NCBI RefSeq assembly: GCF_003258945.1 | Contig: NZ_QLIX01000003.1 | Location: 1-64,000 of the forward strand | Direction: 5' to 3' | DNA from: Roseicella frigidaeris | Lineage (GTDB): Bacteria > Pseudomonadota > Alphaproteobacteria > Acetobacterales > Acetobacteraceae | DNA: 64,000 bases | Shown: positions 19,980 through 61,445 of the stretch, in pieces | Numbering within the stretch: position 1 is the stretch's first letter | Layout of the letters: the number at the start of each line of letters is the position of its first letter | Position numbers and translations under genes: made by a program | The notes under the pieces: generated by a model | Told to the model about the DNA's origin: nothing | The model's input: the letters and a program-made list of their open reading frames with translations, nothing else | Database searches by the model: none

Positions 19980-20053
19980 TGCCGGCGGCCCGCGGCCGGG
20001 CCACGCGACGGCATCGAGGCCCTGGAACCCCGGCGCCGCCTGCCCTATATCGG

Positions 20054-20348
20054 CACTGCCGGCCGGGAGCGATCCCGGCGGCTATGGTGATAAACGTGGC
20101 TCGGGATAAGCGTTGCGGACCCGGGGGCAGTGCCCGGCGCCTCCACCACCTCAGCCGCCCGTGTCGGGGCGGCGGCAAGGGGGCGAAACAGGCTCGACGC
20201 GCGTGGTAATGGGGTCGCTTTTGCCCGGCATGGTTCCGCCGTCATCGGGCCAAATCTAAGTGCGAACGACAACGACGCACTCGCTGTTGCTGCGTAAGCA
20301 GTAAACAAGCGCGGTTCGGGGGGCACCGGGCAACAGAAGCCCCCCACT
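20054..20348 (+). ncRNA. ssrA: tmRNA, two-piece circularly permuted alphaproteobacterial form
   Basis: The acceptor piece comes first. It has a T-arm-like hairpin CCGGG-GGCAGTG-CCCGG (20122-20138) and a 3' end CGCCTCC-A-CCA at 20138-20148. After an intervening spacer (about 20149-20178) the coding piece starts GGGGGCG at 20179-20185, which pairs with CGCCTCC to close the tRNA-like acceptor stem. The tag frame at 20262-20297 encodes ANDNDALAVAA and a TAA stop, a normal proteolysis tag. Rescue of stalled ribosomes is its role. The piece order proves the permuted form; outer limits are estimated. A TATATC box near 20049 may be its -10 element. sspB follows 85 bp downstream. Confidence 0.93.
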
Positions 20349-20432
20349 TCCGCCACCGCCGCGGTCACGTTAACAAACCCTCCCGCTTCCGTGAGTTGAT
20401 CTCCCCTTGGGTAAGAGGGGAAGGGTTGAATC

Positions 20433-39854: not shown

Positions 39855-42002
39855 TCATTCCCCGGCGCGGACCAGCCCGTCCACGGCGAGGCAGCCCCAG
39901 TCGCCGGCGATCAGCGGGTTCACCTCCGCCTCGGCGATCCGCTCCCCGGCCGCGGCGAGCAGCACCGAGAAGGCGGAGACCGCCCGCGCCACCGCCGCGA
40001 GATCGGCCTTCGGCGCGCCGCGGAAGCCATCCAGCAGCGGGAAGCCCCGCAGGCTGCGCAGCATCGCCTCGGCCCGGGCCGGGCTGACCGGCGCGATGTC
40101 GAGCGCCACGTCCTTCCACAGCTCGGCCTGCACGCCGCCGGTGCCGACCAGCACCATCGGGCCGAACTGCCCGTCGCGCCGCCCGCCGAGGATCAGCTCG
40201 ACGCCGCCGCGCGACATGCGCTGCACCAGCACCCCGTCCAGCCGCGCCGCGGGCGCGTGCCGCCGGGCGGAGCCCATGATCTCGGCGAAGGCGGCGCGCA
40301 CCGCCGCGGCATCGCCGAGGCGCAGCCGCACGCCGCCGACCTCGGTCTTGTGCGCGATGTCCGGGCTGTCGAGCTTCAGCACCACCGGGAAGCCGAGCGC
40401 GGCCGCCGCCTCCGCCGCCGCCTCGGCCGTCGCCGCGCGACGCTCCTCGACCACCGGCACGCCGACGCGGGCGAAGAGCGTCTTGGCCTCGGCCTCGGTC
40501 AGCACCGCGCCCCTGGCCGGCAGCGCCGCCAGCGCCCCGGCCAGGCCGGCGGGCGCCTCGGGCTCGCCCGCGGGCGGCGTCGCGTAATGCTCCTGCCACA
40601 GCCGCACCGCGTTCATCAGCCGGCGCATGGAGCGGAACAGCGGCACCACCGGCGAGGCATCCGCCGCCACCGCGCCCGGGCCCTCGAGCTGCTCCGGGAT
40701 CCAGGCGACGATGATCGGCTTGCCGCACTGCTCGGTCAGGCTGGCGATCTCGGCGATGCGGCCCGGCGTGGTCTGGTGGTGGGAATAGACCTGCGGATAG
40801 ACGATGACGCCGTATTGCGGGTCGGCGGCCATCGCCAGCACGCATTTGCCGAAACTGGTCGGGTCGCCCGCCGCCTGCGCCGTCAGGTCGCAGGGGTTGC
40901 GCGCCGCGCCGAAATCCGGGATCGCCGCCTCCAGCACCGCCTTGGCGGCGGCGCCGGGCTGCGGCATGTCGAGGCCCAGCGCCTCGGCATGGTCGGCGGC
41001 CATGATGCCGGCGCCGCCCGAGGCGGTGACGATGGCGACGCCCCTCGCCTTCGGCCGGCCGGCCTTGGCGAAGAGGCCGGCGGTCTCGAGCAGCGCGTCG
41101 AAATCCTCCACCTCCGCCATGCCGGCGCGGCGGAAGGCGGCCGACCAGGCGGCGGCGCTGCCGGCGAGCGAGCCGGTATGCGAGACGGCGGCCGCCGCGC
41201 CCGCCTCGCCGCGGCCGAGCTTCAGCGCGACGATCGGCTTGCCCGCGCGGCGCGCCGCCTCGCCGAGCAATTGCAGCCGCCTTCCGTCGCGCAGGCCCTC
41301 CACCGCCAGCGCCACGGCGCGGCATTCCGGCATGGAGAGCTGGTAGGCGGCGAGGTCGCAGACATCGAGATCGGTGGCGTTGCCCGCCGTCGTCATGTGG
41401 CAGACGGAGAAGCCGCGCTCGGCCGCCTGCATCAGCGCATAGCCGAGCGCGCCGGACTGGCTGGTGATGGCGACGCCGCCCGCCGGCGCGACGAGGCGGG
41501 CATATTCCGGCATGAAGGTGACGCCGGCCTTCAGCACATGGTCGACGATGCCGAGGCAGTTGACGCCGACGAGCGGCAGGCCGGCCTCGCGGCAGCGCGC
41601 CCGCAGCGCCGCCTCCTCGGCGACGCGCTCCGCCAGCCCGGTCTCGCCATAGCCCGAGGCATAGGCGATGACGCCGCCCGCCCCCTTGCGGATGCAGGCC
41701 TCGACGGCCCCCATGATCTGCTCGCGCGGCAGGGCGATCAGCACGCAGTCCGGCACCTCGGGGATGTCGTCGAGGCTGGCGAGGCAGGGGCGGCCATGCA
41801 GGTCGCGGCCGGCATATTTGGGATTCACGCCCCAGACCGGCCCGGCGAAATTGGCGAGGTTGGTGACGGTGCGGCCGCCGAAGCGCGTCGGCTCGGCCGA
41901 GACGCCGATCACCGCGACGCTGCGCGGCGAGAGCACCCGCCGCAATGCCGCCGGATCGCGCAGCGGCGCGGGCGCCGAACCGCCTGACGTCTCGCCGGCC
42001 AT
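39855..42002 (-). CDS. Acetate-CoA ligase (ADP-forming) family protein, fused alpha-beta
   Basis: About 715 residues. An N-terminal CoA-binding domain (SPRSVAVIGVSAEPTRFGG) and succinyl-CoA-synthetase-like domains (VAITSQSGALGYALM, IVTASGGAGIMAADHAEALG) carry the phosphohistidine region (VSHTGSLAGS). The C-terminal ATP-grasp domain is at about residues 490-710 (LGFPVVLKLDSPDIAHKTEVGGVRL). It makes acyl-CoA from an acid, CoA and ATP, releasing ADP; close relatives act on various acids. The start is uncertain among TTG 42017, ATG 42002 and ATG 42062; ATG 42002 begins the conserved region best. It is divergent from the substrate-binding protein gene, with 238 bp between. Confidence 0.85.
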   Translation of the reverse strand: MAGETSGGSAPAPLRDPAALRRVLSPRSVAVIGVSAEPTRFGGRTVTNLANFAGPVWGVNPKYAGRDLHGRPCLASLDDIPEVPDCVLIALPREQIMGAVEACIRKGAGGVIAYASGYGETGLAERVAEEAALRARCREAGLPLVGVNCLGIVDHVLKAGVTFMPEYARLVAPAGGVAITSQSGALGYALMQAAERGFSVCHMTTAGNATDLDVCDLAAYQLSMPECRAVALAVEGLRDGRRLQLLGEAARRAGKPIVALKLGRGEAGAAAAVSHTGSLAGSAAAWSAAFRRAGMAEVEDFDALLETAGLFAKAGRPKARGVAIVTASGGAGIMAADHAEALGLDMPQPGAAAKAVLEAAIPDFGAARNPCDLTAQAAGDPTSFGKCVLAMAADPQYGVIVYPQVYSHHQTTPGRIAEIASLTEQCGKPIIVAWIPEQLEGPGAVAADASPVVPLFRSMRRLMNAVRLWQEHYATPPAGEPEAPAGLAGALAALPARGAVLTEAEAKTLFARVGVPVVEERRAATAEAAAEAAAALGFPVVLKLDSPDIAHKTEVGGVRLRLGDAAAVRAAFAEIMGSARRHAPAARLDGVLVQRMSRGGVELILGGRRDGQFGPMVLVGTGGVQAELWKDVALDIAPVSPARAEAMLRSLRGFPLLDGFRGAPKADLAAVARAVSAFSVLLAAAGERIAEAEVNPLIAGDWGCLAVDGLVRAGE

Positions 42003-42240
42003 GCCTTGCTGCTGCAATCGCCCCTCCCGTCTCCCGCGCTGCGACGCGGCGTTCTTGCCCATGCGGCAGCCTAGACAGGGCGTGCCGGTGGTCAAGCCGC
42101 TAGCTGGAGGGTGATGCGCCGCGGCATGTTCGCGGCCGCGGGAATCCGCCACTCTCGCCGCCGCAACGGCTGCGGCTCCCGGATGCGGCGCATCCGGGCC
42201 GGCCCAACACCCCATCACGCCCAAGGAGAACCGGGACCCC

Positions 42241-43464
42241 ATGCTGCCTCGCTGGACGGCGCTGCTCTGCGCCAGCCTCATCGCCGCGCCCTGCGCCGCG
42301 CCGCGCCCCGCTCATGCCCAGGTCTCGGACGAGGCCATCCGCATCGGCGTGCTGAACGACCAGAGCAGCGTCTATGCCGATATCGGCGGCCAGGGCTCGG
42401 TCGTCGCGGCGCGGCTGGCGGCGGCGGAGTTCGGCAACACGCTGCTCGGCCGGCCGATCGAGATCGTCTTCGCCGACAGCCAGAACCGCGCCGACATCGC
42501 CTCCGCCACCGCCCGGCGCTGGATCGACAGCGACCGGGTGGACGCCATCGCCGACGGCTCGGCCAGCTCCTCCTCCCTGGCCATCCAGGAGGTGACGAAG
42601 GAGAAGAAGAAGGTCTTCCTGGCGAGCGGCCCGGCGACCTCCGACCTGACGGGCAAGTTCTGCAGCCCGACCGGCTTCCACTTCACCTACGACACCTACG
42701 CCCTCGCCTACGGCACCGGCCGGGCGCTGACCCAGCAGGGCGGCAATTCCTGGTTCTTCATCACCGCCGACTACACCTTCGGCCATGCGCTGGAGCGCGA
42801 CACCAGCGCCTTCGTGCGCGATGCCGGCGGCCGGGTGCTCGGCTCGGTGCGGCACCCGCTGAACACCGCCGACTTCTCCTCCTTCCTGCTGCAGGCCCAG
42901 GGCTCGCGCGCCAAGGTGGTCGGCTTCGCCAATGCCGGGACGGATTTCGACAACGCGCTGAAGCAGGCAGCCGAATTCGGCCTGGTGAAGGGCGGCCAGC
43001 GCATGGCCGGGATGCTGGTCTTCATCAGCAACATCCATGCCCTCGGCCTGCCGGTGACCCAGGGGCTGGTGGCGACGACCAGCTATTACTGGGACCGCGA
43101 CGAGCGGACGCGGGACTGGCACAGGCGCTTCGCCGCCGCGCATGGCGGCCGCGCCGCCACCATGGTGCAGGCCGGCACCTATTCGGCGGTGCGCCACTAC
43201 CTGCGGGCGGTGGAGGCGGCCGGCACGGATGACGGCGAGGCCGTCGCCGCCATGATGCGGCGGATGCCGGTGCAGGACATGAACAACGACAACGTCCGCA
43301 TCCGCGAGGATGGCCGGGTGCTGCACGACATGCTGCTGGTCCAGGCCAAGGCGCCGGAGGAGAGCAAGGGCCCCTGGGACTATTACCGCATCCTCACCCG
43401 CATCCCCGGCGAGGAGGCCTTCCGCTCCCTGGCGCAGAGCGAATGCCCGCTGGTGAAGCGGTGA
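42241..43464 (+). CDS. ABC transporter substrate-binding protein (branched-chain amino acid type)
   Basis: Periplasmic receptor of 407 residues. A signal peptide ends near residue 27 (PAHAQV). The fold of the LivJ group follows, with AIRIGVLNDQSSVYADIGGQGSVVAARLAA, the SxxSLAIQEVTKEKKKVFLASGPATSDLTG segment and HFTYDTYALAYGTGRAL. No permease or ATPase genes adjoin it, so it is an orphan receptor here. ATG 42241 has AAGGAGAA upstream. The ligand could be an amino acid, amide or aromatic acid. Confidence 0.88.
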   Translation: MLPRWTALLCASLIAAPCAAPRPAHAQVSDEAIRIGVLNDQSSVYADIGGQGSVVAARLAAAEFGNTLLGRPIEIVFADSQNRADIASATARRWIDSDRVDAIADGSASSSSLAIQEVTKEKKKVFLASGPATSDLTGKFCSPTGFHFTYDTYALAYGTGRALTQQGGNSWFFITADYTFGHALERDTSAFVRDAGGRVLGSVRHPLNTADFSSFLLQAQGSRAKVVGFANAGTDFDNALKQAAEFGLVKGGQRMAGMLVFISNIHALGLPVTQGLVATTSYYWDRDERTRDWHRRFAAAHGGRAATMVQAGTYSAVRHYLRAVEAAGTDDGEAVAAMMRRMPVQDMNNDNVRIREDGRVLHDMLLVQAKAPEESKGPWDYYRILTRIPGEEAFRSLAQSECPLVKR

Positions 43465-50411: not shown

Positions 50412-50625
50412 GCCCCCCTCTGTCCGGTGACCTGAGAGATTCGGCCGGCTGGCTTGCGGCCTTACTCCGTCGGTGCCGGCCGCCCTGCGGCAGCCAGGCT
50501 TTCCAGAGGCCCCTTCCCCGCGCGGCCCTTCTGCCTGAGCGTTTCCGGGGGCCGGTTGCGCCTTCGGCGGGGCGGCCGCCCGGCCGTCACGGCCGGATGC
50601 CACCCTCTCTCCCGCGCGGGATCAG
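50412..50625 (-). promoter_or_regulatory. Tandem glycine riboswitch
   Basis: Read on the minus strand, the gcvT leader holds two glycine aptamers in series. The first contains GGGAGAGAGGG, the CGCCGAAGGCGCAACC core and GGAAACGCTCAGGCA. The second contains CTCTGGAAAGCC, the CGACGGAGTAAGGCC core, GAATCTCTCAGG and CACCGGACAGAGGGG. These sequences and their order match the known class. Glycine binding should switch on gcvT-gcvH-gcvP-NUDIX. No separate terminator hairpin is clear; the second aptamer ends about 45 bp before the GTG, so control may act on translation. Confidence 0.93.
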
Positions 50626-55203: not shown

Positions 55204-57444
55204 TCACCACCGCACCCGCAGCCCGCCGATGATCAGCCGGCGCAGGCCGAAATAGCAGGCGGTGGCGGCGGAGCAGCTGGCGATGTATTCGCGGTCGCCC
55301 AGGTTCTGCATGTTCACCGTCAGCTCCAGCCTGGTGGGCAGGTCGAAGCGAGCGCCGATGTCGTAGCGGATCGCGGCGTCGAACAGGGTGACGTCGTTCA
55401 CCTTGAAGGCGTTGGCGTCGTTGCCGTAGCTCGAGCCGACATAGCGGACGCCGCCGCCGAGCGAGAGGCCGCGCAAGGCCCCATCGGTGAAGCTGTAATT
55501 GGCCCAGCCGCTGGCGACGTGGTTCGGCACCTGCGGCACCCGGTTGCCCGAGACGCCCGCGGTGTTCGACTTGGTGATCTCGGCATCGATGTAGGTGTAG
55601 GTGCCGATGAGGTCGAGGTGGTCGTTGAGGCTGGCGCGCCCCTCGAGCTCGATGCCGCGCGAGCGGATCTCGCCGGTCGGCTGGCTGAAGGTGGTGTAGA
55701 CCGGGTCGGGCGTCAGCACGTTCTGCTGGCGGATCTGGTAGCCCGCGAGCTGGATGAAGCTGTCGATCCCAGGCGGCTGGTACTTCACGCCGACCTCGAA
55801 CTGCTCGCCGGTCGTCGGCGCGAAGGGCGTGGCCCCGCGCTGCGGCGCGGAGGTGCCGGCGTTCGGCAGGAAGGAGGTGGAGTAGCTAGCATAGGGCGCG
55901 ATGCCGTTGTCGAACAGGTAGAGCAGCCCGGTGCGCCAGGTCACCTCGTCATCCACCTGCGACTGCTGGCCCGCATTGGCGCCGCTCGCCAGGTGGGTGG
56001 TGGTGTTCTGCGTCGCATGGTCGTAGCGCAGGCCGATGTTGAACCGCCAGCGGCCGTAGGAGACCTGGTCCTGGGCGTAGAGGCCGAGCTGGTCGGTCTC
56101 CTGGTTCGTCTTGTCGCCGAGCCCGCTGTAGATGGCCGGGATGGTGCGGTAGTAGACCGGCGCGAAGATGTTGAGGGTCGGGATGCCGGCCGCGACGGTG
56201 GTGATGCGCCCGCGCGTGGAGGTGCGCTGCCAGTCGAGGCCGAACAGCGCCGTGTGCTGCAGCGGCCCGGTGGTGAAGGTGGCCTGCGCCTGGTTGTCCA
56301 GCGCGAAGGAGTTGGCGTGGTCCTTGGCGAAGGTGGCGCGGCGCGTGGCGGTGCGGCCATCCGCCCCGATGCCGGCGATCGAGAGGACGTTGAACTCGGA
56401 ATCGACGTAGGAGTAGCGGAAATTCTGCCGCACGGTCCAGACGTTGTCGACCCGGTGCTCGAGCTGGTAGCCGACCGCCGCCTGGGTGCGCTCGTACTTG
56501 TTGTAGTTGGGATCGCCGCCGAAGAAGTTGGACCGCAGCCGCCCATAGGGGCTGGGCAGCACCGTGCCGAGCGCCGGGACGAAATTGTAGAAGCCGCCGT
56601 AGGGATCGTACTGGTAGGAGGAGAGGAAGGTGATGGAGGTGTTGTCCGTCGGCCGCCAGGTCAGGGCGGGCGCGATGGCGATGCGCTTCTCGTCGCTGAA
56701 GTCGAATTGCGTGTTGGCGGTGCGGCCGATGCCGGTCAGCCGGTAGAGGAACTTGCCGTCCTCGGTGAGCGGCCAGCCGAAATCGAAGGCCGCCTGGGCG
56801 AGGCCGTAAGACCCGGCCTCGAGCCGCACCTCGTTCACCGGCGTCGGGGTCGGGCGGCGGCTGACGAGGTTCACGATGCCGCCGGCGCCGGTCTGGCCAT
56901 AGAGCACCGAGGCCGGGCCGCGCAGCACCTCGATGCGCTCCAGCAGCCAGGGATCGGTGTTCGGCACGCCGTAATAGAGGCCGCGGCCCTGGCGCAACCC
57001 GTCGAGGAAATTGACATAGGCGGCGCCGGTGCCCTGGCCGCCGAAGCCGCGCACGAAGACGCTGTCGTAGCGCGCGCTCGGCCGCACCTCCGGCAGCACG
57101 CCCGCGGTGTAGCGCAGCGCCTGCGAGACGCTGAGCGCCCCCTGGTCGTCGATCTGGTCGCGGGTGACGACGCCGACCGATTGCGGCGCCTCGATCAGCG
57201 GCGTATCCGTCTTGGCGCCGGTGGTGGTGACGGGCGCGACATAGCCCGAGACCGGCTGCCAGGAGCGCCAGGCCGTCGCCTGCACGTCGAGCTGCGGCAG
57301 CTCGATGGCCGCGGCGGTCGGGTCGGCGGCCGCCTCGCCCGGCGCCTGCGCCCAGGCCGGGCCCATGGCGAGGGTTGAAAGGACCGCGGCGCCGAGCGGG
57401 CGGAACCCCCGCCGCTTGCCGCGCTGACCTGGAACTCGACGCAC
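55204..57444 (-). CDS. TonB-dependent siderophore receptor
   Basis: Outer-membrane receptor of 746 residues. A signal peptide to about residue 33 is followed by the plug domain with APQSVGVVTRDQIDDQGALSVSQALRYTAGV, VFVRGFGGQGTG and RIEVLRGPASVLYGQTGAGGIVNLVSRRPT. The beta-barrel ends in aromatic Trp (GGLRVRW). A TonB box is not certain. Ferrichrome/ferric-hydroxamate receptors are the closest type I recognise. GTG 57444 has GGAGGA seven bases upstream. The short palindrome TGCGACGCAGTCGCA 41 bp upstream could bind an iron regulator. Confidence 0.93.
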   Translation of the reverse strand: MRRVPGQRGKRRGFRPLGAAVLSTLAMGPAWAQAPGEAAADPTAAAIELPQLDVQATAWRSWQPVSGYVAPVTTTGAKTDTPLIEAPQSVGVVTRDQIDDQGALSVSQALRYTAGVLPEVRPSARYDSVFVRGFGGQGTGAAYVNFLDGLRQGRGLYYGVPNTDPWLLERIEVLRGPASVLYGQTGAGGIVNLVSRRPTPTPVNEVRLEAGSYGLAQAAFDFGWPLTEDGKFLYRLTGIGRTANTQFDFSDEKRIAIAPALTWRPTDNTSITFLSSYQYDPYGGFYNFVPALGTVLPSPYGRLRSNFFGGDPNYNKYERTQAAVGYQLEHRVDNVWTVRQNFRYSYVDSEFNVLSIAGIGADGRTATRRATFAKDHANSFALDNQAQATFTTGPLQHTALFGLDWQRTSTRGRITTVAAGIPTLNIFAPVYYRTIPAIYSGLGDKTNQETDQLGLYAQDQVSYGRWRFNIGLRYDHATQNTTTHLASGANAGQQSQVDDEVTWRTGLLYLFDNGIAPYASYSTSFLPNAGTSAPQRGATPFAPTTGEQFEVGVKYQPPGIDSFIQLAGYQIRQQNVLTPDPVYTTFSQPTGEIRSRGIELEGRASLNDHLDLIGTYTYIDAEITKSNTAGVSGNRVPQVPNHVASGWANYSFTDGALRGLSLGGGVRYVGSSYGNDANAFKVNDVTLFDAAIRYDIGARFDLPTRLELTVNMQNLGDREYIASCSAATACYFGLRRLIIGGLRVRW

Positions 57445-60268: not shown

Positions 60269-60554
60269 TGGTGCTGCACGACAGGATTGAACTGTCGACC
60301 TCTCCCTTCTCCACCACTTCGGCTTTCGCCGCCGCCTTCCGGCGTTCGTGGCCCGGACTGTCCCTTCACCCTGGGCCGAAGCCGTTAGGTGCCACCCATC
60401 CAGTCTCTACACCTTCCCCTTGCGGGGCTTGGCTCGGGATCGCCATCGGCTGGTGCCGGAAGGGTTCCCCGACTTTGGGCGGTTATCATCCCCTGGTTTC
60501 CCAGAGGCGTGGCAAATCTACCAAGGGAGTGCTCTACCACTGAGCTAGTGCAGC
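60269..60554 (-). tRNA. tRNA-Thr(GGU) interrupted by a group I intron
   Basis: Minus strand, 5' end at 60554. Exon 1 is 60554-60520 (acceptor GCTGCAC, D-arm TAGCTCAGTGGTAGAGC, anticodon stem CTCCC, loop TTGGT). Exon 2 is 60308-60269 (AA, GGGAG, AGGTC, T-arm GACAG-TTCAATC-CTGTC, acceptor GTGCAGC, A, and encoded CCA at 60271-60269). Joined, they make a standard 72-nt tRNA plus CCA, with the seven-base loop TTGGTAA, anticodon GGU, threonine. The 211-bp intron splits the loop after the anticodon. Known introns in bacterial tRNAs sit in Leu(UAA), Arg, Ile and fMet genes; I do not know of a Thr(GGU) host. Confidence 0.9.
60309..60519 (-). ncRNA. Group I intron, 211 nt, no ORF
   Basis: The first base (60519) follows exon U and the last base is G (60309), as in group I introns. 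P1 forms between the exon end UGGU and intron GCCA, with the conserved U-G pair at the splice site. P2 is CUGG-GAAA-CCAG. P7 strands GACUG (60405-60401) and CAGUC (60360-60356) are perfect complements, inside the typical GGUGUAGAGACU and GUGAAGGGACAGUCC contexts. P8 shows GGC-UUCG-GCC, and P9 helices are CGCC-GGAA-GGCG and CGGC-GAAA-GCCG. It should self-splice. No homing endonuclease is encoded. Confidence 0.9.
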
Positions 60555-60885
60555 GTACCGACCTCCTCGAACCTCCTGGCCTGGTCCACCTAACCTGGTG
60601 CCGCACGCTCAACCGTGGAGCGCCTTGTCGCCAAGGACCCGCTCCACCGCAGAGGCATGGCGGCGGACCCGCCCGGAAGCCCGCGCTCTCTAACGGCTCG
60701 CCCCCGGCCATGCAACCCCTTCGCGCTGGGCATCCGCCGGCGCAGGGGCAACCTGCCAGTAAGCAATTCTAACGCAACCTCCCGGCCGAGACGCGGGGCA
60801 GGACGCCGCCCGCGGATGAGGAGCCGGCATGGCTTGCCCCCGCCCGCCGCGGCACGACCCGCCTGCCCGCCCGCCAGGACCGCCG
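60555..60885. other. Intergenic region upstream of the tRNA gene
   Basis: About 330 bp between the tRNA and thioesterase genes, both on the minus strand. It holds a hairpin (GTGGAGCG and CGCTCCAC arms near 60616-60653 with an inner CCTTG/CAAGG pairing). It should contain the tRNA promoter, but no clear -35/-10 pair is visible. No gene is recognised. Confidence 0.5.
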
Positions 60886-61317
60886 TCACGGCGCCCGCAG
60901 CTTCCGCACCACCGTGGTGAGGCGCGAGACGCAGCTCAGCCTGCCGTCGCCGCGGCGGATCTCGATATGCCAGACCTGCACGCTGCTGCCGAGCTGCAGC
61001 GGCCGGCACAGCGCCTCCACCACGTCGCCCTTGTGCACCGGCGCCAGGTGGTTGGCGTTCACCTCCAGCCCCACCACCGTCCAGCCCTCCTCCAGCGCCA
61101 TCACGCCGCAGGTCGAGCCGATGGTCTCCGCCAGCACCACGCTCGCGCCGCCATGCAGGATGCCGGCCGGCTGGATGTGGCGCTCGTCCACCGGCATCGT
61201 CGCGCGGGCGAAATCCTCCCCCCATTCGACGAACTCGATGCCGAGCAGGCTCGGCATCGTCCCCGCATGCCGCGCCGCATAGGCCTCGGGCGGCATCGCC
61301 CGCTTCCACACTCCCAT
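60886..61317 (-). CDS. PaaI-like hotdog-fold thioesterase
   Basis: Cytosolic acyl-CoA thioesterase of 143 residues. GILHGGASVVLAETIGS is the active-site signature (His-Gly-Gly, Glu), followed by VGLEVNANHLAPVHKGDVVEA. It belongs with YbdB/PaaI/ComA2-type enzymes that release small acyl groups from CoA. ATG 61317 starts the conserved region; upstream ATG 61389 has no support. It is divergent from the glycosyltransferase gene. Confidence 0.9.
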   Translation of the reverse strand: MGVWKRAMPPEAYAARHAGTMPSLLGIEFVEWGEDFARATMPVDERHIQPAGILHGGASVVLAETIGSTCGVMALEEGWTVVGLEVNANHLAPVHKGDVVEALCRPLQLGSSVQVWHIEIRRGDGRLSCVSRLTTVVRKLRAP

Positions 61318-61445
61318 GCGCCCTCTCTCCCGCTTGCCTGCCGGGCAGGATGGCCTGTGGCGGGCCGGTGTCAAAGGACCATCAATCAAAAGGGGACATG
61401 CCTACCTGTAGTTGACATTTCCGTTACAGTTAAGCAAGAAACCCG

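Follow-up and report, generated by a model that had tools for sequence, protein, structure and literature searches.

Group I introns and integrating elements at bacterial tRNA genes

The group I introns known from bacterial tRNA genes, with Agrobacterium among their hosts, are about 200 nt long, lie in the anticodon loop, follow a U and end in a G, and have helices in the order P1 to P9, with P2 and P9 capped by GNRA tetraloops. The introns resembling the one described here presumably belong to subgroup IC3. In the available text of two papers on plastid and cyanobacterial tRNAs, introns are reported in isotypes other than Thr(GGU). The accessible part of one report (PMC5733544) assigns inserts of 22-49 nt in the Arg, Gly and Lys tRNAs of cyanobacteria to the group I introns; we judge these too short for the fold set out below. 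According to the available section of a 2014 review, the phage group I introns observed until then were all located in protein genes (PMC3984707).

Ordinary tRNA-targeting islands use a tRNA gene as attB and restore the tRNA at one junction (cf. PMC4383910). In tRNA-dependent lysogeny, as outlined in the accessible sections of its description (Guerrero-Bustamante and Hatfull, mBio 2024, PMC10865867), a tyrosine integrase acts at a core of about 10 bp, the tRNA is not rebuilt, and the phage carries a tRNA of the same isotype. The same sections state that the Gordonia phage Daredevil integrates at tRNA-Lys-TTT without rebuilding it, encodes no tRNA of its own and forms clear plaques. Furthermore, in Sinorhizobium meliloti, also a member of the Alphaproteobacteria, a host tRNA gene was replaced by a foreign one after prophage integration (PMC11476347, available part).

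The locus considered here lies in a stretch of 64,000 nucleotides from Roseicella frigidaeris (the window). Its intron has its size, ends, helix order, GNRA caps and insertion site in common with the known bacterial tRNA introns, but differs from them in its host, tRNA-Thr(GGU), in its guide, GCC, and in that a broken copy of the tRNA gene lies alongside. As in tRNA-targeting islands, a tRNA gene would serve as attB; unlike there, the tRNA is not restored at a junction. The replaced tRNA is reminiscent of the S. meliloti prophages, in which, by contrast, introns do not figure: the word is absent from the available text of both papers (PMC11476347, PMC12429752). The window and its relatives appear to match tRNA-dependent lysogeny, and what would be new is the twist that a group I intron interrupts the rescue gene within the core used for recombination; the word intron occurs once in the available text of that description, in a reference (PMC10865867). 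Another difference is that one of the insertions discussed below, in Roseicella sp. DB1501, has a relaxase near the integrase. In the open-licence literature searched, neither an intron-bearing rescue tRNA nor a Thr(GGU) host of a group I intron turned up; the locus adds tRNA-Thr(GGU) to the hosts, in line with the impression of novelty in an earlier note on this DNA.

The intron-bearing tRNA-Thr(GGU) gene

ARAGORN, run with intron search, reports a tRNA-Thr(ggt) with a 211-nt intron at 60269-60554 on the minus strand of the window, exactly the ends, strand and insert after the anticodon that had been read from the letters; run without intron search, it misses the gene. Exon 1 (60520..60554, minus strand) comprises the acceptor 5' strand, the D arm, the 5' strand of the anticodon stem and the loop up to U36, ending in CUUGGU. 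Exon 2 (60269..60308, minus strand) extends from A37 to an encoded CCA end, and the intron (60309..60519, minus strand) separates U36 from A37. Once the intron is removed, the cloverleaf with its GGU anticodon is complete. Over bases 1-36 and 36-75, respectively, of its 75 bases, an intact tRNA-Thr(GGU) from another genus is 100% identical to the two exons; identity to other genera is thus 100%, as against 90-94% to the own genus. The identification of 60269-60554 as a tRNA-Thr(GGU) split just after its anticodon by a small IC3-like group I intron is confirmed at the sequence level. A chance fold or reading frame was rejected, since two methods detect the intron and its structure shows covariation.

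The covariance-model search gave a divided answer. In a search of 901 bases against all families, the group I intron model RF00028 aligned over its full length with 28.6 bits and an E value of 3.7e-5, which supports the assignment, but the score stays below the gathering score of 50. This gathering score misses other introns of the kind as well, such as that of plasmid pCTX-M3 (36.8 bits), and for the Daredevil intron no RF00028 match reached E 0.05.

The fold was examined on 34 introns picked by hand from the set used for the tree below. The named structure, with 53 pairs in 12 helices (1794 cells), is paired in 90.3% of cells, and slid versions of it in 32-46%; changes on both sides occur in 25 of the 53 pairs, a number matched by none of 500 shuffles. 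All features that follow are on the minus strand. The guide GCCA (60510..60513) pairs with the exon UGGU to form P1, with the U.G at the splice site; GCC is found in all six Thr(GGU) introns aligned and the U.G in 34/34 introns. P1 is telling because one of its strands is exon. P2 (60490..60507) is a hairpin with a GAAA loop, paired in 50.6% of cells, a low value that in our opinion arises because the alignment columns lose register there. The P3 strands (60388..60482) enclose P4, P5, P6 with its GCAA loop, and the 5' strand of P7 (P3 90.3%, P4, P5 and P6 100%, P6a 94.9% of cells paired). P7 and P8 occupy 60352..60407, with the P7 strands at 60400-60407 and 60352-60359 and P8, with a UUCG loop, between them; both helices are paired in 100% of cells. 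In the window the P7 strands read GACU/AGUC, with a G-C pair beyond a bulged A, and one Thr intron of a relative has a compensatory change from U-A to C-G. The P9 domain (60309..60351) has a CCAC/GUGG closing stem, P9a (GGAA), P9b (GAAA) and the terminal G of the intron, which ends in GGAG. The core formed by P3, P4, P6, P7 and P8, including the P3/P7 knot, is therefore paired in 90-100% of cells, compared with 32-46% for the whole structure when slid. All the group I features that the earlier note had listed are present, namely the U before the intron, the final G, the P1 U-G pair, paired P7 strands and four tetraloop-capped helices, to which P9b is added as a fifth.

Guide and exon correspond in the other introns inspected: GCC faces GGU in Thr and GGG faces CCU in Arg, GAG faces CUU in Leu(UAA), Lys(UUU), Arg(UCU) and Thr(UGU), and, among the viral introns, GCA faces UGU in Asn and GGAG faces CUCU in Lys(CUU). 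Between hosts that share CUU the guide needs no change. As the tables of guides and hosts were built with the preceding U and the final G as a filter, they are no independent test of those intron ends. The set of hosts is wider than the Leu(UAA), Arg, Ile and fMet that the earlier note named as known in bacteria, and also includes Lys(UUU), Lys(CUU), Arg(UCU), Thr(UGU) and Asn(GUU), in bacteria or on viral contigs. In four Leu(CAA)-like intron tRNAs (L101, L107, L108, L115) exon 1 would end in C instead of U, so that the 5' splice site may have a C-G pair.

The 5.8-Mb draft assembly (87 contigs) contains 45 matches to RF00005, and ARAGORN was run on these 45 loci. Thr(CGU) and Thr(UGU) are present among them and no other Thr(GGU) gene was found. 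An intact Thr(GGU) query has high identity in the assembly only to the two exons of the window, the next match being the Thr(CGU) gene (75% over 55 bases). A second intact Thr(GGU) gene, which together with a silent locus here would have spoken against the earlier note, was thus not detected, in a draft in which Ile(GAU) and Ala(UGC) are also absent among the 45 loci; the draft is incomplete, and for this reason the lack of a second gene is not fully secure. A recent origin of the intron from the Arg(CCU) or Leu(UAA) gene of the same genome was rejected, as both are uninterrupted in the assembly and the Thr introns are separate from both groups in the tree.

A second related intron occurs in the same genome (L021, 1670-1963, contig C78), in an unusual Leu(UAG)-like tRNA that has C33 and adjoins an uninterrupted tRNA-Leu(CAA). 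Its counterpart in Roseicella sp. DB1501 (L025) has an 8-base loop, and neither a junction repeat nor a match to three integrases was found in the neighbourhood of L021 and L025. Elsewhere in the window there are a two-piece tmRNA gene of the alphaproteobacterial type (20019-20388) and a tandem glycine riboswitch (50417-50624).

Split host genes in relatives, prophages and phages

With two candidates scored per genome, an exon-intron-exon match was found in at least 6 of 397 genomes of the family: that of the window (G000), Paracraurococcus ruber (G001), Roseicella sp. DB1501 (G003), Crenalkalicoccus roseus (G025), Roseomonas acroporae (G086) and Siccirubricoccus sp. G192 (G115). A pattern scan of 84,980 species, one genome each, gave 49 matches; five are Thr introns, from the last five organisms just named, and no tRNA context was found for the remaining 44. 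The intact tRNA-Thr(GGU) of G004 was used as query on eight genomes, among which G002 and G004 have one intact gene each. Both interrupted and intact forms of the gene, for which a comparison across the Acetobacteraceae had been proposed, therefore exist.

In G001 and G003, which belong to the same genus as the window, the host gene is in two pieces, bases 1-37 and 30-75, whose 8-bp overlap is the core CTTGGTAA; the tRNA is cut at this short core and not rebuilt. An intron-bearing tRNA-Thr(GGU) lies on the inserted side of the broken anticodon loop, and its exons are identical to the broken host gene (100% over 1-36 and 36-75). The insertion in G001 measures about 1.5 kb, is contained in one contig and has the intron copy, inverted, inside the core repeats; the sole element protein tested, a 289-aa frame, has no Pfam match. 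In G003 the intron copy is found beside the left core, starting about 110 bases inside it, and beyond it there are OmpA-like, PD-(D/E)XK, tyrosine integrase, relaxase and NikA-like genes (Pfam: Phage_integrase E 1.2e-22, relaxase E 1.6e-23, NikA-like E 1.2e-8), with approximate gene calls made by our own script. The orphan 3' half in G003 is on a different contig from the 5' half.

In the other four genomes (G000, G025, G086 and G115) the intron copy occurs without split halves. That of G115 lies beside a thioesterase gene, as in genomes with an intact gene, and since G025 and G115 carry the intron without any trace of an element, it can also live in a resident gene. G086 has, 7.3 kb from its intron copy, a 23-bp repeat of the 3' end of the tRNA. 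Its integrase neighbour was considered as a further split-gene case and rejected, because such a repeat fits an ordinary island at the 3' end.

The window locus itself looks like the relic of a tRNA-Thr insertion such as those in G001 and G003. At 60628..60664 (minus strand) there is what appears to be a decayed remnant of a former tRNA-Thr gene, namely its 5' half as far as the presumed core of recombination. It can be aligned, with a local score of 52.5, to the 5' half of G003 together with the adjoining element arm. This score is reached by 3 of 2130 window tiles, two of which (63 and 59) are taken as the tRNA itself and the third as the half-tRNA stretch; the next best scores 35. The half-tRNA and element arm form a predicted hairpin (60615..60647, minus strand) of -20.0 kcal/mol, compared with -15.6 for the G003 form, and its stem is kept relative to G003 by two changes from A-T to G-C pairs, a comparison of two sequences only. 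Such a hairpin may prevent the remaining exon-1-like sequence from acting as a competitor for the intron. Further upstream, a promoter-like stretch (60689..60715, minus strand), read as the putative promoter, is common to the intact and split tRNA-Thr loci of the genus. The upstream flank is a thioesterase gene (60886..61389, minus strand; Pfam 4HBT, E 5.4e-17), also found in G001, G002, G003, G004 and G115 (tblastn, 62-91%). On the other side, a TonB-dependent receptor gene (55204..57444, minus strand; Pfam E 1.3e-69) has a homologue that flanks the orphan 3' half in G003; tblastn detected none in the regions retrieved from G001, G002, G004 and G115. The window and G003 thus have the thioesterase (91%) and the TonB receptor (90%) as common flanks, and in G003 these stand beside the two half-genes.

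Of an integrating element the window would hold at most a relic: a Pfam search of 11 reading frames from the region 52.5-62.8 kb gave no integrase, and no 3' half-tRNA was found in the window or the assembly. Together with the split genes of the two relatives, the half-tRNA remnant suggests that the whole intron-bearing gene arrived as cargo, and not the intron alone. The exons in the window are of another sequence type than those of the own genus, so the insertions in the window and in G003 need not descend from one event; exons of this type would have been delivered by another element or acquired by later exchange.

The intron tree was built from 135 of 139 introns after four duplicates were dropped; it took only intron-tRNAs with the AGACT motif, except for L052, which was added by hand, about 12 ends were re-cut by hand, and two doubtful viral introns (L227, L275) were excluded. 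With a bootstrap that had not settled and with some viral isotype labels doubtful, the six Thr introns fall in one branch (96/97), apart from 66 Arg(CCU) introns (100/99). The branch also holds one Lys intron on a long branch, and strict monophyly of the Thr introns is for that reason unsupported. The Thr intron of G001 groups with those of G115 and G086 (99/92) and not with its own genus, a position that points to transfer between genera.

A parallel case is found at tRNA-Lys(UUU) in another genus. In G323 this gene is split at ACTTTTAAT by a 39-kb prophage with genes for a tyrosine integrase, terminase, portal, capsid, baseplate and lysozyme. Inside the prophage, at its right junction, there is an intron-bearing tRNA-Lys(UUU), whose exon 2 agrees with the host half in 40/41 positions (98%). 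Eleven of the 14 genomes of the genus have an intact tRNA-Lys(UUU) only, G239 has an intact gene and, 40 kb away, an extra 3' fragment, and G323 and G399 have the intron copy and no intact gene. In G399 an isolated 5' half is located near a contig end, and no 3' half of tRNA-Lys(UUU) was found. The tRNA-Lys(UUU) of G239 is likewise occupied by an element, about 40 kb long (C1, 600094-640151) and ordinary in appearance, with the tRNA rebuilt; this element and that at the 3' end of the tRNA-Thr of G086 look like tRNA-targeting islands of the ordinary kind.

Phage Daredevil (NC_048021) contains an unannotated intron-bearing tRNA-Lys(UUU) at 41820-42131, which is missed by ARAGORN without intron search. 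Between this gene and the integrase, near 42289, there is a 16-nt copy of the spliced anticodon arm, the presumed attP. The statement that Daredevil encodes no tRNA of its own is amended by this reading of the genome. In the related phages Mollymur, Bantam, SpeedDemon and BrutonGaster, the slot of Daredevil's intron tRNA is occupied by a tRNA that lacks an intron.

Among 128 viral loci examined, ARAGORN found an intron-tRNA in 47. The intron sites in these loci (L179-L306) are between positions 33 and 34 in Met(CAU), 34 and 35 in Leu(UAA), Arg(UCU) and Lys(UUU), 35 and 36 in Lys(CUU) and Asn(GUU), and 36 and 37 in Arg(CCU). The spliced junctions of 48 viral intron-tRNAs gave no att-like repeat of at least 12 nt, in a run that included neither Daredevil nor a positive control; a control with swapped junctions gave 25/1794. 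Most phage intron-tRNAs in this set therefore are not of the split-core kind. At 13 further bacterial loci, repeats of at least 9 nt occur in five, and only a 13-nt repeat at the Lys locus of G323 was taken as a half-tRNA. No split halves were found for the intron genes of G282 and G103 (Arg(UCU)) or of G380 (Thr(UGU)), the last of which also has an uninterrupted Thr(UGU) gene. A phmmer search with the three integrases against 14 loci, exclusive of the integrase region of G323, matched only Daredevil's own gene.

Plasmids contain introns of this type as well. The window query matches 1274 of 72,556 plasmid records, mostly Enterobacteriaceae by name; pCTX-M3 (NC_004464), the only one opened, has a tRNA-Leu(UAA) with a related group I intron (L177, 2947-3245) near aac(3)-IId and an AAA ATPase gene. 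This intron tRNA may mark an origin of that segment outside the Enterobacteriaceae.

Origin of the gene and a possible use for its intron

On the basis of these sequences, the intron-bearing gene is best explained, with a probability of about 0.78, as a rescue copy brought by an integrating element that broke the host tRNA-Thr(GGU). The element would have recombined at the 7-8 bp core in the anticodon loop and broken the original gene in two, bringing along a complete intron-bearing tRNA-Thr(GGU) as a replacement, as in tRNA-dependent integration. In the window lineage the element would later have disappeared, so that the rescue gene now lies behind the old promoter and the decayed 5' half-tRNA; insertion, rescue and loss probably took place in this order. 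The gene would then be the working, and presumably essential, tRNA-Thr(GGU) gene of the cell. In the precursor, the IC3-like intron would pair its guide GCCA with the exon UGGU and cut after U36, which would be joined to A37 as the intron leaves.

Plain spread of the intron, by reverse splicing or homing into a resident tRNA-Thr(GGU), with elements picking up such genes later by accident, is an unlikely account, yet it has points in its favour. The guide fits the host exon and related introns occur in hosts that share CUU. This is in accordance with the spread by similarity of target sequences that the earlier note proposed. Moreover, the intron copies of G115 and G025 are free of element traces, and the former stands beside the thioesterase like an intact gene. 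However, fragments of a broken host gene persist next to the intron copy in the window, G001 and G003, and the exons in the window are those of other genera; half-tRNA and split genes point to whole-gene cargo. Spread by target similarity is supported only in part. That the gene is a decaying pseudogene whose codons are read by another tRNA seems most improbable: Thr(UGU) and Thr(CGU) genes exist and the assembly is a draft in 87 contigs, but the exons are identical to an intact gene of another genus with the CCA encoded, the core helices of the intron are intact, and the assembly yielded no other Thr(GGU) gene.

If the gene indeed arrived as a rescue copy, it is possible to speculate about a further role of the intron, which would add to this origin and not compete with it. 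By splitting the att core, the intron could prevent the integrase of the element from inserting into the element's own rescue gene, an idea that we regard as falling somewhat short of even odds. In the four carriers inspected closely the intron lies inside the core, between CTTGGT and AA in G001 and G003, between ACTTT and TAAT in G323 and between CTT and TTAA in Daredevil. The exons of the rescue gene equal the broken gene in G001 and G003 (exon 2 in 40/41 positions in G323) and nothing else tells the two apart; without the intron, the elements of G001 and G003 would carry a full copy of their own target. In BrutonGaster, the intronless rescue tRNA differs from the presumed attP in the pair beside the loop. 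On the other hand, Mollymur, Bantam and SpeedDemon have rescue tRNAs that lack an intron and agree with the presumed attP over 9-10 nt, none of the 48 viral intron-tRNAs has the repeat expected of a split core, and the clear plaques of Daredevil argue against full function of its rescue gene. Anticodon loops are favoured by both these introns and integrases, and the overlap could be coincidence. Still a little more tentatively, the att core of a rescue tRNA, interrupted by a self-splicing intron, would be unusable for DNA recombination while RNA splicing restores the tRNA; a selfish intron would serve as a device of self-immunity, and its spread to Thr and Lys would follow the targets of the integrases.

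Because ARAGORN without intron search misses the genes of both the window and Daredevil, tRNA-dependent integration may be under-counted. The relatives of the window indicate that mobile DNA which breaks the host's tRNA gene can bring along a spare, split one, with the intron located within the targeted sequence. The clustering of group I introns in the anticodon loops of a few bacterial tRNAs has long been a question. The locus and its relatives link this niche to integrases acting on the same few bases, and they give a testable reason why an intron may be useful to its carrier.
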